A stretch of DNA of 64,000 nucleotides from an uncultured Erythrobacter sp. Its GTDB lineage: Bacteria > Pseudomonadota > Alphaproteobacteria > Sphingomonadales > Sphingomonadaceae. Under the pieces are notes generated by a model. It was not told where the DNA came from, did no database searches, and was given only the letters and a program-made list of their open reading frames with translations. The stretch covers positions 124,001 through 188,000 of the forward strand of contig CANMUS010000003.1 of the NCBI GenBank assembly GCA_947501215.1, in the 5' to 3' direction. The stretch's first letter is position 1. The number at the start of each line of letters is the position of its first letter. A program made the position numbers and the translations under genes. Shown piece by piece: positions 23,940 to 27,286 of this stretch.

Positions 23940-24389
23940 TTACTTCTTATCTTCGGTCTTCTTGGCGGCGGCCTTCTTCGGCGCTGCCTTCTTCGGCGCT
24001 GCCTTCTTCTCGGCCTTCGGCGCATCGTCCGTCTTGGCTTCGGCCTTCGGAGCCGATTCCTTCTTCGGCGCAGCCTTACTCTCGGCCTTCGAATCGCCGA
24101 CGGCGGTGATGCGCAGAAGGGTCATCTGCTGGCGATGGCCGTTCTTGCGGCGATAATTGTGGCGGCGGCGCTTCTTGAAGACGATCACCTTCTCGCTCTT
24201 TGCCTGGGCGATGATTTCCGCGGACACGGTCACCTTGCCGGCGTCTTCGAGCTTTTCACCTTCACCGGCGAGCAGGACGTCGCCCAGCGTGATGGTGTCA
24301 CCGGCTTCGCCAGCCAGCTTTTCAACGGCGATCTTGTCTCCGGCGGCAACCCGGTATTGCTTGCCGCCCGTGCGCACTACTGCGAACAT
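23940..24389 (-). CDS. rplU: 50S ribosomal protein L21 with long Ala/Lys-rich C-terminal tail
   Basis: Residues 1-98 are a normal L21 ([14 protein letters not shown] start, [17 protein letters not shown] rRNA-binding loop). Residues 99-149 form a tail of alternating Ala, Pro, Lys and Glu with AAPKK repeats, absent from the E. coli protein of 103 residues but known in many sphingomonads. The tail is likely disordered. It is first in the rplU-rpmA operon. Confidence 0.98.
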
Positions 24390-24484
24390 GGTGGTTATCT
24401 CTCAATCAATTAGCTTTGCCGCATCCTTGCGAATATACGGCGCACCCGTCAGGCCGCCGATTGGCAGCCCCGGAAAGAAGCGTG

Positions 24485-24513
24485 CCGTTAGGCGAATGGC
24501 GGGCCCAAGTCAA
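24485..24513 (-). promoter_or_regulatory. Candidate promoter of rplU-rpmA
   Basis: On the minus strand TTGACT (24508-24513) and TAACGG (24485-24490) are separated by 17 bases. The -35 matches sigma-70 consensus at five of six positions; the -10 is weak. The untranslated leader to the rplU ATG would be about 90 bases. A 9-bp hairpin (AGCGAGGAT/ATCCTCGCT, 24521-24544) lies just upstream. Confidence 0.5.
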
Positions 24514-24578
24514 CGGCCAGAGCGAGGATTTTTGCATCCTCGCTGGCGACTTTCGGCCTGCATGATATGGAGTGGGCG

Positions 24579-25097
24579 ATGACGTATCGCAAGCTCTCTC
24601 TCGCCGCCTGCCCTGCGCTCCTGATGGTCGGATGCGCGACTCCGGCCGATAGCGATTACCCGTCGCTTGCCGTCCGGGACATCGAGCGGGCTGAAGGACA
24701 ATTCGATGTCGGCCCCCCGCAGACAATCGATGTGCCCGCAGTGGAGACACCGCTCAGCGGCCCGCTCCCCGAACAGCTTGCAACTCTCGTCGCCCGGGCG
24801 ACCGAAGCCCATCGCGCCTTCACGAGCGCCCTGCCCACAGCCGAGCGCCGGGTGGCGGCAGCTTCGGGCGCCGCGATCGGCAGCGATAGCTGGGCCGCCG
24901 CACAGGTCGCCCTCGCTGATCTCGATTCGAGCCGGAGCCTGGCCTCGGTGCCGCTGGGCGATCTCGACATATTGTACGCCGCAGCATCGGTGCAGGCAGA
25001 CGACACGGCAGCGATCGAAGCCGCGCGCTCTCAGGTCATCGCACTAGTCGCGGAAGAGGACGCAGCGCTGGAGCGACTGCGCGCGCGCGTTCGATGA
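24579..25097 (+). CDS. Hypothetical lipoprotein coupled to an FNR-type regulator gene
   Basis: A 172-residue protein I cannot assign. MTYRKLSLAACPALLMVGC is a lipoprotein signal with lipid-carrying Cys19. The mature part is Ala-rich and helical, without Cys, and has heptad-like spacing from about residue 60 to the end. The ATG at 24579 is preferred to 24567 for the signal peptide. Its stop overlaps the next start as ATGA (25094-25097), so it is translated together with the FNR-type regulator. Confidence 0.75.
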   Translation: MTYRKLSLAACPALLMVGCATPADSDYPSLAVRDIERAEGQFDVGPPQTIDVPAVETPLSGPLPEQLATLVARATEAHRAFTSALPTAERRVAAASGAAIGSDSWAAAQVALADLDSSRSLASVPLGDLDILYAAASVQADDTAAIEAARSQVIALVAEEDAALERLRARVR

Positions 25098-25774
25098 GCC
25101 TCGCCTGCGCGACATGTCCGGTGCGCGATCGCGCGGCCTGTGCTGTGCTCGACGAGGCTGAACGGGACGAGCTGGCGAAAGCCGGGCGCACGCGCAAACT
25201 GGCAAAGGGCGAGGCTCTGTTTTCGGCAGGCCTGAGCGATGCGGCTTGCGCCACGCTGGTCAGCGGCGCCCTGAAGATCACCTCGACGGACAGCGAGGGC
25301 CGCGAGCGCATCCTGTCGCTGGTGCATCCCAGCGGCTTTGTTGGCGAGTTGTTCGGACCTTACGTCCAGCACGATGTCGTGGCGCTGGGCGAAAGCGAGG
25401 TTTGCGTGTTCTCCGGCCCTTCCCTCGAGCGGGCGATCGAGCGGTACCCGCGGCTCGGCACGGCGCTTTTGCGGCGCGCGCAGGAGGATCTCTATGCCAG
25501 CCGCGAATTGCTGTCGCTGACTGGGAATGCCTCGGCCGAACGCCGCGTCGCGGGCGCGATCCTGTCGCTGGCCCGATCGGCGAGCGATTCGCCTTGTCAT
25601 CCGGCGCGGCGTTTCGACCTGCCGCTTTCACGAAGCGAGCTTGCCGATATGCTGGGCTTGACCATCGAAACTGTTAGCCGGACGCTTACCCGCTTCGAAC
25701 GCGCCGGAGCGATCCGACGCGACGGAAAACGCGGGATCGAATTGCTCGACCCCGCGCTCCTCCCCGACACCTGA
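25094..25774 (+). CDS. fnr: Crp/Fnr-family oxygen-responsive regulator (FnrL/FnrN-like)
   Basis: A 226-residue regulator. N-terminal Cys5, Cys8 and Cys16 form the CX2CX7C pattern of alphaproteobacterial FnrN/FnrL, and Cys104 is the fourth ligand candidate for an oxygen-labile [4Fe-4S] cluster. The cyclic-nucleotide-like fold spans about 25-140. The DNA-recognition helix IETVSRTLTRFE has Glu192, Ser195 and Arg196, the residues that read TTGAT half-sites. A perfect FNR box occurs at 26257-26270, in front of the neighbouring convergent gene. Confidence 0.88.
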   Translation: MSLACATCPVRDRAACAVLDEAERDELAKAGRTRKLAKGEALFSAGLSDAACATLVSGALKITSTDSEGRERILSLVHPSGFVGELFGPYVQHDVVALGESEVCVFSGPSLERAIERYPRLGTALLRRAQEDLYASRELLSLTGNASAERRVAGAILSLARSASDSPCHPARRFDLPLSRSELADMLGLTIETVSRTLTRFERAGAIRRDGKRGIELLDPALLPDT

Positions 25775-25780
25775 CTTCGA

Positions 25781-26206
25781 TTACCGGACCAGGGCCGCAA
25801 TCGTCACGGTCGACACGCCCCAGCAGAAGATGATGACCGGCAGGATCAGCATCTGGACGCTTGCATCCTTGGCCGTGAGCCGCCCGGTCAGCGTGGCGAT
25901 GCCATCGCGGCGCAGTTTGGCATAGCTCATCGGGCGAAAAGCGGTTCCGGGTGCTAGCTTGGTCCAGATCGCCGGGACGCCGAAGCCGGCCACGACGAAC
26001 AACGTGAAGATGGCCATCGGAATGATAAGGCCGGGCGTCGATAGCCCCGCCGCCATCACGGCGAGGAACCCGAGGTAAAGCGCAACGGTCGCGGCATAGA
26101 GGCCTTTGGGCAGCTCGAACGTACGATCGACCTCGTGGCGGAATTTCGGCGCAGGAACGATGACGGCCTGCCGGGCAACGAGTTCGCGAGTAAGATGCTT
26201 GGACAT
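25781..26206 (-). CDS. Hypothetical inner-membrane protein, probable FNR target
   Basis: A 141-residue protein with about four hydrophobic segments (near 38-55, 58-80, 116-140 and one weaker) and a basic N-terminus containing APKFRHEVDRTFELPKG. I do not recognise the family. It converges on the FNR-type gene with a 6-base gap and is preceded by a consensus FNR box 51 bases before its ATG. This points to expression controlled by oxygen. Confidence 0.72.
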   Translation of the reverse strand: MSKHLTRELVARQAVIVPAPKFRHEVDRTFELPKGLYAATVALYLGFLAVMAAGLSTPGLIIPMAIFTLFVVAGFGVPAIWTKLAPGTAFRPMSYAKLRRDGIATLTGRLTAKDASVQMLILPVIIFCWGVSTVTIAALVR

Positions 26207-26256
26207 GTTCGGTCTCCTTGTTGGAGACCTCGTGGCCGGAGCCGGAGATCGATTCC

Positions 26257-26270
26257 TTGATTGAGATCAA
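26257..26270 (-). promoter_or_regulatory. Consensus FNR box
   Basis: TTGATTGAGATCAA matches TTGAT-N4-ATCAA exactly. It lies between the moaE stop (26281) and the ATG of the minus-strand membrane gene (26206), centred about 57 bases before that ATG. An FNR-type regulator is encoded 500 bases away. I cannot place the transcription start, so activation versus repression is open. Confidence 0.85.
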
Positions 26271-26280
26271 ATCACGCGAG

Positions 26281-26748
26281 TTATTCCCAGCGCGCGATAT
26301 CCTCGCGGTCTTGCCCGCGCGGCTCGATCCAGCGCCAGCCGTCGGCGCGCCTTTCGCGCTTCCAAAGCCATGCTGCGCTTTTCAGGTGGTCCATCAGATA
26401 GTCGGCAGCGCCAAAGGCATCGCGCCGATGGCGGGCGGCGGTGGCGACCAGCACGATGGCCTCGCCCGGCATCATGACGCCGACGCGGTGCCAGACCAAA
26501 GCTCCGTCGAGTGCGAAGCGGTCGCGGGCCGCTGCAGCCAGCTCTCGCATCCCGGGCAGCGTCAGCGGCTCGTAATGCGACAGGTCGAGCGCGCGGACAT
26601 CGCCGTCGGGCCTGACCTTGCCGAGAAACGACACGACACCGCCCGCCTCGCCATGCGCGGCATTGAACGCGGCCAGCGCCTCGCCGACCGACAGCCCCTT
26701 GTCGAGCAGCCGAACGTCGAGCGGCGTGTCGATGGTGAGCCTAGCCAC
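26281..26748 (-). CDS. moaE: Molybdopterin synthase catalytic subunit MoaE
   Basis: A 155-residue protein with GTG start. GGVVSFLGKVRPDGDVRALDLSHYEPLT opens the fold, HRVGVMMPGEAIVLVATAARHRRDAF covers the substrate pocket, and the lysines in YLMDHLKSAAWLWKRE are the conserved active-site pair. With MoaD it inserts two sulfurs into cyclic pyranopterin monophosphate to make molybdopterin. It overlaps moaD by 8 bases. Confidence 0.96.
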   Translation of the reverse strand: MARLTIDTPLDVRLLDKGLSVGEALAAFNAAHGEAGGVVSFLGKVRPDGDVRALDLSHYEPLTLPGMRELAAAARDRFALDGALVWHRVGVMMPGEAIVLVATAARHRRDAFGAADYLMDHLKSAAWLWKRERRADGWRWIEPRGQDREDIARWE

Positions 26749-26983
26749 CGCTCACCGGTGGCAGCAGAGCGACCTCGTCGCCATGCCCGGCGTGCAGCTG
26801 GGTCTTGTCGGCAAGGACCTTGCCCGCGCAGGCTACATTAACGCGCTGTTCGCCGAGTTGCTCTGCAACTTGCGGGCCTACGGCTTCCAGCAGGCCGGAC
26901 CAATCCAGCGGTGCCTCCACCTCCAGCGTCGGGCTTTCCGCCAAATCGCGCAGGGGGCCGAGAAAGAGGATGGTCACCGTCAT
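26741..26983 (-). CDS. moaD: Molybdopterin synthase sulfur carrier subunit MoaD
   Basis: An 80-residue ubiquitin-fold protein ending LLPPVSGG; the terminal Gly-Gly is adenylated and thiocarboxylated to carry sulfur. MTVTILFLGPLRDLAE is the usual first strand. It overlaps moaE and lies 3 bases after the preceding mini-SDR gene. moaA, moaB and moaC are not in the window. Confidence 0.96.
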   Translation of the reverse strand: MTVTILFLGPLRDLAESPTLEVEAPLDWSGLLEAVGPQVAEQLGEQRVNVACAGKVLADKTQLHAGHGDEVALLPPVSGG

Positions 26984-26986
26984 GCC

Positions 26987-27286
26987 TCAGGTCTCCAGAT
27001 ATTGCCCGGTGACACCCGGCGCTTCGGCGAGATAGACGACGGTCGCATCGAGCGCCGCGCCTTCGCCGGCCACCATGTTGACCCTGCGCGGCGTGTGCTT
27101 GCGTGCGAGACCGGCGGTGACGGCCCGGCGCCATTCGCGGTGCGTGTGGTCAGCCGCAGGTACCGTGATGGCCACGTCTAGGCCGCCTCCGAGCTGCTGC
27201 TCGATATGGCTGAGCCAGTGCTGGTGGAACAGACCCGCAGCGGCGAGCGGATCGTCGGGCAGATCGTCCACCGCAATCCGCTTCAT
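26987..27286 (-). CDS. Small protein resembling the C-terminal part of a short-chain dehydrogenase
   Basis: A 99-residue protein between folB and moaD. The end (RRVNMVAGEGAALDATVVYLAEAPGVTGQYLE) reads like the last strand and helix of SDR enzymes, where RVN-V-PG and FLAS...ITGQ recur. The GxxxGxG dinucleotide loop and the YxxxK active site are absent, so it cannot be a working SDR alone. The start at 27286 overlaps the folB stop (ATGA). It may be a degraded or repurposed pterin reductase (FolM-like); this is inference. Confidence 0.7.
   Translation of the reverse strand: MKRIAVDDLPDDPLAAAGLFHQHWLSHIEQQLGGGLDVAITVPAADHTHREWRRAVTAGLARKHTPRRVNMVAGEGAALDATVVYLAEAPGVTGQYLET

Follow-up and report, generated by a model that had tools for sequence, protein, structure and literature searches.

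A conserved Shine–Dalgarno hairpin at an FNR-type class II promoter: a candidate start-site lock on the translation of a small membrane protein gene in Sphingomonadales

The insertion sequences IS10 and IS50 are protected from outside transcription, the ribosome site being hidden in the RNA that enters from outside the element; the gene considered here would share this feature, but IS10 and IS50 are mobile elements and not part of an environmental regulon. The passages of PMC4265352 on these elements do not describe the protection. In phage T4, according to the relevant parts of a review (PMC2988022), the late promoter of I-TevI lies inside the hairpin by which read-through RNA conceals its ribosome site, and soc, e and other genes are named as being controlled by hidden ribosome sites. 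The relevant parts of PMC10971746 concern read-through across a weak terminator and not a hidden ribosome site. As regards the promoter, dRNA-seq in Sphingopyxis granuli placed the centre of the FNR box at −41.5 or −42.5 for ccoN, uspA, cybB and other genes, which the authors assign to class II, and the C-x2-C-x7-C spacing, with the third cysteine displaced by two residues, is described there as that of the FnrN subgroup (PMC7713065, in the parts bearing on these promoters).

We analysed a stretch of 64,000 nucleotides from an uncultured Erythrobacter sp. (hereafter the window; contig CANMUS010000003.1, positions 124,001 to 188,000), in which a small membrane protein gene preceded by an FNR box appears to combine these two arrangements. 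The reading that we favour, with a probability of a little under 0.6, is that an FNR class II promoter starts transcription within a hairpin covering the Shine–Dalgarno sequence, so that RNA arriving from upstream is locked. An oxygen-sensing FNR (the local FnrN-type protein or, in genomes without it, probably a paralogue of the FnrL type) would bind the box and activate the promoter, and RNA polymerase would start about 16 bases before the ATG, inside a small inverted repeat, in its loop. RNA entering from upstream, by moaDE read-through or stray transcription, would contain both arms of the repeat and be poorly translated, its Shine–Dalgarno sequence being hidden, whereas FNR-started RNA would lack the 5′ arm and hence be open to ribosomes. 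The membrane protein would therefore be made mainly at low oxygen, and the choice of start site would bind transcriptional and translational control together. The computed basis of this reading consists of the box, the class II geometry, the predicted hairpin, its covariation and the tie between hairpin position and box.

As with the late genes and homing endonucleases of phage T4, the transcript made from the gene's own promoter would not contain the sequence needed for the Shine–Dalgarno hairpin, and RNA from upstream promoters would be locked (PMC2988022, same parts); unlike in T4, the gene is cellular, its promoter is of the FNR type, it occurs in many genera, and the lock is a predicted one. 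The locus likewise resembles the FNR class II promoters of S. granuli (ccoN, uspA, cybB) in the −41.5/−42.5 position of the box centre and in its FnrN-type regulator with a displaced third cysteine; it differs in that the words hairpin and leader are absent from the main text of that report (PMC7713065), and the ccoN promoters analysed below are mostly devoid of a hairpin. In the open literature, searched by titles and the beginnings of abstracts with subscription papers mostly outside the search, we recognised neither an FNR-dependent nor a bacterial chromosomal start-site lock; the matches included other Shine–Dalgarno hairpins, namely riboswitches, thermometers and sRNA targets. Thus, the parts are known (FNR class II promoter, T4-type lock), and we could not find a precedent for their combination in the open literature searched.

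Table 1. Features of the locus, in window coordinates
Feature	Position	Strand	Remarks
Putative lipoprotein ORF	24579-25097	+	ATG alternatively at 24567; lipobox-like MVGC; overlaps FNR start
FnrN-type Crp/Fnr regulator	25094-25774	+	C5-x2-C8-x7-C16 and C104; IETVSR recognition helix
Small membrane protein, 141 aa	25781-26206	-	Predicted to be controlled by the FNR box; without known family match
Hairpin 3′ arm GGAGACC	26211-26217	-	Contains Shine–Dalgarno GGAG (26214-26217)
Hairpin loop AACAA	26218-26222	-	
Predicted transcription start	26222	-	Box centre at −41.5; first hairpin-loop base; 16-base leader; inferred from class II geometry
Hairpin 5′ arm GGTCTCC	26223-26229	-	Upstream of predicted +1
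Weak −10-like element CACGAG	26229-26234	-	22 bases from box; −12 pyrimidine, −11 A
FNR box TTGATCTCAATCAA (- strand reading) / TTGATTGAGATCAA (forward)	26257-26270	-	Perfect TTGAT-N4-ATCAA; conserved in 48 loci
moaE	26281-26748	-	Directly upstream of membrane gene, same strand; stop 10 bases before FNR box
moaD (ThiS family)	26741-26983	-	

The three ORFs of the preliminary description (lipoprotein, FNR regulator and convergent membrane protein gene) were all found where it had placed them (Table 1). It had also proposed that the lipoprotein and regulator genes are translationally coupled: a 4-base ATGA overlap is indeed present, and a −4 overlap is kept in 31 of the 45 loci in which it could be measured, the coupling as such being read from this overlap. 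Six bases separate the 3′ ends of the membrane and FNR genes, and no terminator-like site was found between moaE and the membrane gene. The latter is 97% identical to its counterpart in Qipengyuania sp. XHP0211 (Sphingomonadales).

A scan of genome contigs yielded 48 relative loci, which together with the window form the main set of 49. In 47 of the 48, moaE lies ahead of the membrane gene in the same orientation; the FNR gene comes after the membrane gene in 37 and is gone in 11, and the lipoprotein is present in 44 (a few of the loci counted end at contig edges). A profile search detected the membrane protein in 101 of 296 Sphingomonadales genomes, representing 28 of 79 genera; every one of these belongs to the GTDB family of the window. 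From its matches, a second set of 60 loci was picked by hand so as to favour intermediate and distant members, and is therefore not random. We kept the 38 loci with a box at 50–63 bases and dropped the 22 without such a box (17 distant homologues below 57 bits, plus L118–L121 and L138). Four of these distant homologues (L083, L084, L086 and L087) do have a perfect box, at 67–71 bases, and in each of these loci an FNR-like gene lies upstream of the membrane-protein homologue; in L083, a uspA-like gene follows the FNR-like gene.

The box before the membrane gene is perfect, as had been reported, and the distance of 51 bases given for it holds when counting to the start codon (50 bases separate box and ATG). 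When the genome was searched for further FNR boxes, as had been suggested, three perfect ones were found in 3.04 Mb, two of them besides this locus, against none for a reversed control pattern; TTGAYNNNNRTCAA sites numbered five in the genome versus three in the control. In the window and the 48 relatives, the orthologous gene starts 50–58 bases after the box; for protein matches beginning within the gene, a script picked a start codon following the box. The box is perfect in 34 cases and has one mismatch in 14 and two in 1. Since perfect boxes outnumber the control (3 versus 0) and the placement is the same throughout the main set, the box is not a chance occurrence. The other two perfect boxes of the genome are both on contig C7 (L001, 6725-6738 and 7452-7465), one 20 bases before an ORF read as a trypsin-like protease and the other inside the same coding region.

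When the 49 sequences were aligned on the box, two columns stood out: position 23 (−12) is a pyrimidine in all of them (C in 29, T in 20) and position 24 (−11) is an A in 48, the remainder of the −10 hexamer being weak. The −11 A is also present in 36 of the 38 loci of the second set, i.e. in 84 of 87 sequences overall. These two bases fit the −12 and −11 of a −10 element with the spacing of class II, which would put +1 at position 35. For the window, this good geometry predicts a start 16 bases ahead of the ATG.

We then compared the fold over the Shine–Dalgarno sequence with that of 203 background ORFs from the same loci. The Shine–Dalgarno sequence (at least 3 of 4 core bases) is paired in 49/49 main-set leaders versus 32% of the background ORFs, and paired within a fold of −7 kcal/mol or better in 48/49 versus 19%; background ORFs and ccoN starts come from mechanical calls, some of which may be erroneous. 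By the same test, the Shine–Dalgarno sequence is paired in 21 of the 38 loci of the second set, 35 of which still fold at −7 or better: the hairpin there often brackets the Shine–Dalgarno sequence or covers adjoining bases, and in the GGGCATC/GATGCCC type the Shine–Dalgarno sequence is mostly in the loop. The stems themselves vary in sequence (GGTCTCC/GGAGACC in the window, CCTTTCC/GGAAAGG in L063, TTCTCCTTC/GAAGGAGAA in L057, GGGCATC/GATGCCC in several of L103–L112) and in length; CTCC/GGAG stems are found too, loops range from 3 to 11 bases, and G-T pairs occur. The pair just outside the GGAG core (n = 39) is T-A in 24 cases, G-C in 8, C-G in 5 and T-G in 2.

Because a MAFFT alignment, which took in 28 of the 49 leaders, was too gappy at the loop for column-wise counting of pairs, covariation was assessed by arm-swap permutations, which keep composition and correct only partly for relatedness. 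Exchanging the 5′ part among 30 representatives (protein identity below 80%, from the 43 of 49 present in an alignment) weakened the mean fold from −9.27 to −6.12, and none of 1000 permutations reached the true pairing, although in 7 representatives at least one in five foreign 5′ arms folds as well as the native one. The same held for 36 further loci (0/2000; the 38 of the second set minus L136, which is the same region as L054, and L096, a distant paralogue, with no further thinning) and for 68 combined representatives (0/2000; leader identity below 75%).

The position of the hairpin follows the box. In 42 of the 48 main-set loci with a stem (L045 is without one by this measure), the first loop purine lies 41.5 (25 loci) or 42.5 (17 loci) bases from the box centre, and the standard deviation of the loop position is smaller relative to the box than to the ATG (1.05 versus 1.91 in the main set, 3.08 versus 3.81 in the second). 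The +1, itself a predicted position, falls in the loop or at most 8 bases 5′ of it in 49/49 loci of the main set and 34/36 of the second. RNA cut at this +1 folds at −3 kcal/mol or better in 1/49 and 5/36 loci, respectively. The predicted probability that the Shine–Dalgarno sequence is unpaired averages 0.06 in the long RNA and 0.48 in the short one, and is higher in the short RNA in 49/49 cases; with 40 coding bases included, the short RNA exceeds 0.5 in only 19/49. Where transcription starts, that oxygen is the signal, how translation is affected and that mistimed expression is unwanted are the parts of the proposed lock that we infer.

Five loci (L104, L106, L110, L112 and L115) bear on what such a lock would guard against. 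Their upstream gene is, by ORF reading, a divergent polA-like ORF, so that moaDE read-through is not the reason for the hairpin there, and yet a hairpin of −10.7 or better is kept. If the lock is real, it would hence act against any RNA arriving from upstream. The need for a guard would in turn suggest that the product is unwanted at the wrong time. Folds are weak (−6.4 and −6.1) in L114 and L137, which stand beside divergent NnrS-like genes.

The same hairpin could be read differently. It might lie within the FNR transcript itself, transcription starting further upstream than predicted, and act as a sensor of translation, either as an RNA thermometer or as a switch bound by a ligand or a protein. 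Small Shine–Dalgarno hairpins are the typical form of simple RNA thermometers, and a sensor would sit well with the five second-set loci in which the predicted transcript keeps a fold and with the persistence of the hairpin beside the divergent polA-like genes. What speaks against it is the −11 A, found at class II spacing in 84/87 sequences, along with the −41.5/−42.5 position in related promoters (parts of PMC7713065 cited above); owing to these two observations, we place +1 in or just before the loop. In addition, region 24300-27200 of the window gave no Rfam match up to E 1, and on this account we reject a known riboswitch. On balance, a sensor seems unlikely to us. We regard as very improbable that the inverted repeat is a DNA operator through which a second regulator covers the start site: its location close to the predicted start would fit, and a palindromic operator would have covarying arms as well, but the stem sequence, the stem length and the loop length (3–11) all change from locus to locus, and G-T pairs are tolerated.

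The hairpin could also have no regulatory role, the promoter being an ordinary FNR class II promoter whose pyrimidine-rich start region happens to face a purine-rich Shine–Dalgarno sequence. The arms are indeed pyrimidine/purine biased, and an equally strong Shine–Dalgarno hairpin occurs in the 19% of background ORFs mentioned above and in 4 of 23 other FNR-box genes (−7 or better; two ccoN and one uspA-like gene among them). Swaps that keep the composition of the arms nevertheless separate own from foreign arms. We also used ccoN as a control, with 30 loci from the 34 genomes that gave a match among 59 searched. The class II geometry is shared by the ccoN promoters, 17 of the 18 whose box lies at 40–75 bases having the −11 A, but a hairpin is found in only 5/30 (4 of the 18 with a well-placed box), the mean fold is −6.7, like that of the background (−7.0), and the swap signal is weak (10/1000). 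As ccoN promoters of the same class mostly do without a hairpin, the hairpin conserved at the membrane gene does not simply come with a class II FNR promoter, though single promoters, including that of the window genome's own ccoN, have one; an idle hairpin is accordingly a poor bet in our view. The favoured explanation remains an FNR promoter that starts within the hairpin.

The regulator matches Pfam HTH_Crp_2 (9.3e-20) and cNMP_binding (1.9e-13), as well as the NCBI FnrL model (E 2.6e-39; 135 bits, below the 300-bit cut-off). Its best PDB matches are FNR-type regulators (E 6e-17), with the first two cysteines and Cys104 aligned. The description of this protein as a cysteine-type FNR is borne out by its homologues at the fetched loci, 72/72 of which have C5, C8, C16 and C104 together with E192, S195 and R196. 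By its Crp fold, four cysteines and E--SR helix, the protein belongs, as far as sequence can tell, to the FnrN subgroup, and oxygen sensing is predicted. Given the residues kept in 72/72 homologues and the rightly placed class II box, control of the membrane gene by FNR is very likely.

That the three genes form one closed module could not be upheld. In the 11 of 48 syntenic loci in which the local FNR is missing (L036–L042, L045, L047, L049 and L053), the lipoprotein gene stands next to the membrane gene and the box and hairpin stay; since box and hairpin outlive the local FNR, we reject the closed three-gene circuit as originally worded. The window genome encodes seven Crp/Fnr proteins by search, two of which have a C-x2-C-x(5-7)-C motif close to their N terminus: the local regulator and a 42% identical one on contig C9. 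Of the 18 genomes searched because they have no local FNR, 17 encode an FnrL-type regulator (best match 37–41% identical, aligned from residue 3–5) and the remaining one has a best match of only 30% identity, while only 3 of 36 genomes with the local FNR have a second such regulator (the window genome, 42%; G307, 43%; G332, 41%); these are raw genome counts that ignore kinship and do not include the genome of L028, and the FnrL-type label comes from identity, leaving out the cysteines of the matches in other genomes. From this contrast, the local FnrN-type and the FnrL-type regulators look interchangeable, and, considering also the 11 loci without a local FNR, the box seems to be read by whichever FNR a genome has. 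Two more of the seven in the window genome (L019 and L021) lack the cysteine motif but have ETVSR and might read the same box, which makes cysteine-free relatives with the same recognition helix possible further readers.

On contig C9, the gene of this second, FnrL-type regulator, a further Crp-like gene and ccoN follow one another in a row, ccoN having an FNR box 54 bases ahead of it and the hairpin CCGAAAATTTTTCGG beside its Shine–Dalgarno sequence (L144, 9294-12684). The membrane gene looks like one of several FNR-box genes, along with ccoN, hemN-like and uspA-like genes (names beyond ccoN by ORF reading). In L165, L170 and L176, an FNR box is common to divergent genes read from their ORFs as uspA-like and carotenoid-oxygenase-like. 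In L164, L167, L175, L179 and L181, Crp-like genes located beside ccoN or ompW-like genes (by ORF reading) have FNR boxes 34–62 bases ahead, and a regulator cascade is possible there.

The membrane protein had been described as a four-helix protein; the AlphaFold model (mean pLDDT 78) instead gives three long helices (34–54, 58–84 and 112–140) plus short ones (3–13 and 95–101). The window protein has no Pfam or NCBIfam match above cut-off, and its best PDB matches are at E 0.11 by sequence and E 2.8 by fold. Scattered weak Pfam matches occur in 1–3 of 43 relatives, and DUF2975 was set aside as a weak match (E 0.07). From the neighbours of the relatives described below, we would guess at a role in low-oxygen or nitric oxide physiology.

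A broader reading, which we put forward tentatively and would not expect to hold in every part, is that of a cellular environmental gene made leak-proof: translation would be licensed only for activator-started RNA, the lock would be conserved with fully changed stems across many genera of Sphingomonadales, and it would guard an uncharacterised membrane protein of a nitric-oxide/low-oxygen family, harmful when made through leakage. If so, bacteria would use start-site choice, known from phage T4, to seal an environmental regulon at the level of translation. The design would be compact and portable, with one activator site governing both transcription and translation, and an annotation that looked only for the FNR box would overlook half of the regulation.

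The uncharacterised membrane protein family would then also be worth studying in low-oxygen and nitric oxide physiology, its paralogues standing by globin-like genes and other relatives by NnrS-like genes. In the nearer homologues L114 and L137, an FNR-type box separates the gene from a divergent NnrS-like gene; the NnrS assignment has Pfam confirmation in L114 alone. Of 14 distant paralogues examined, 11 either overlap an ORF read as truncated-globin-like or begin no more than 61 bases after it, and the L098 paralogue lies 166 bases after an ORF read as a globin fused to DUF1971 (the globin-neighbouring paralogues are L085, L088–L092, L094–L096 and L098–L100). Pfam, applied to six such globin-like ORFs, returned Bac_globin in three, two of them above cut-off, and DUF1971 in L098. 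In L096, an Rrf2-type regulator and a DUF1971 gene lie nearby as well. The paralogues and their globin-like neighbours may form a nitric oxide response unit. None of the 14 paralogues has a box at the usual place except L096, whose box has one mismatch and lies inside the preceding ORF.
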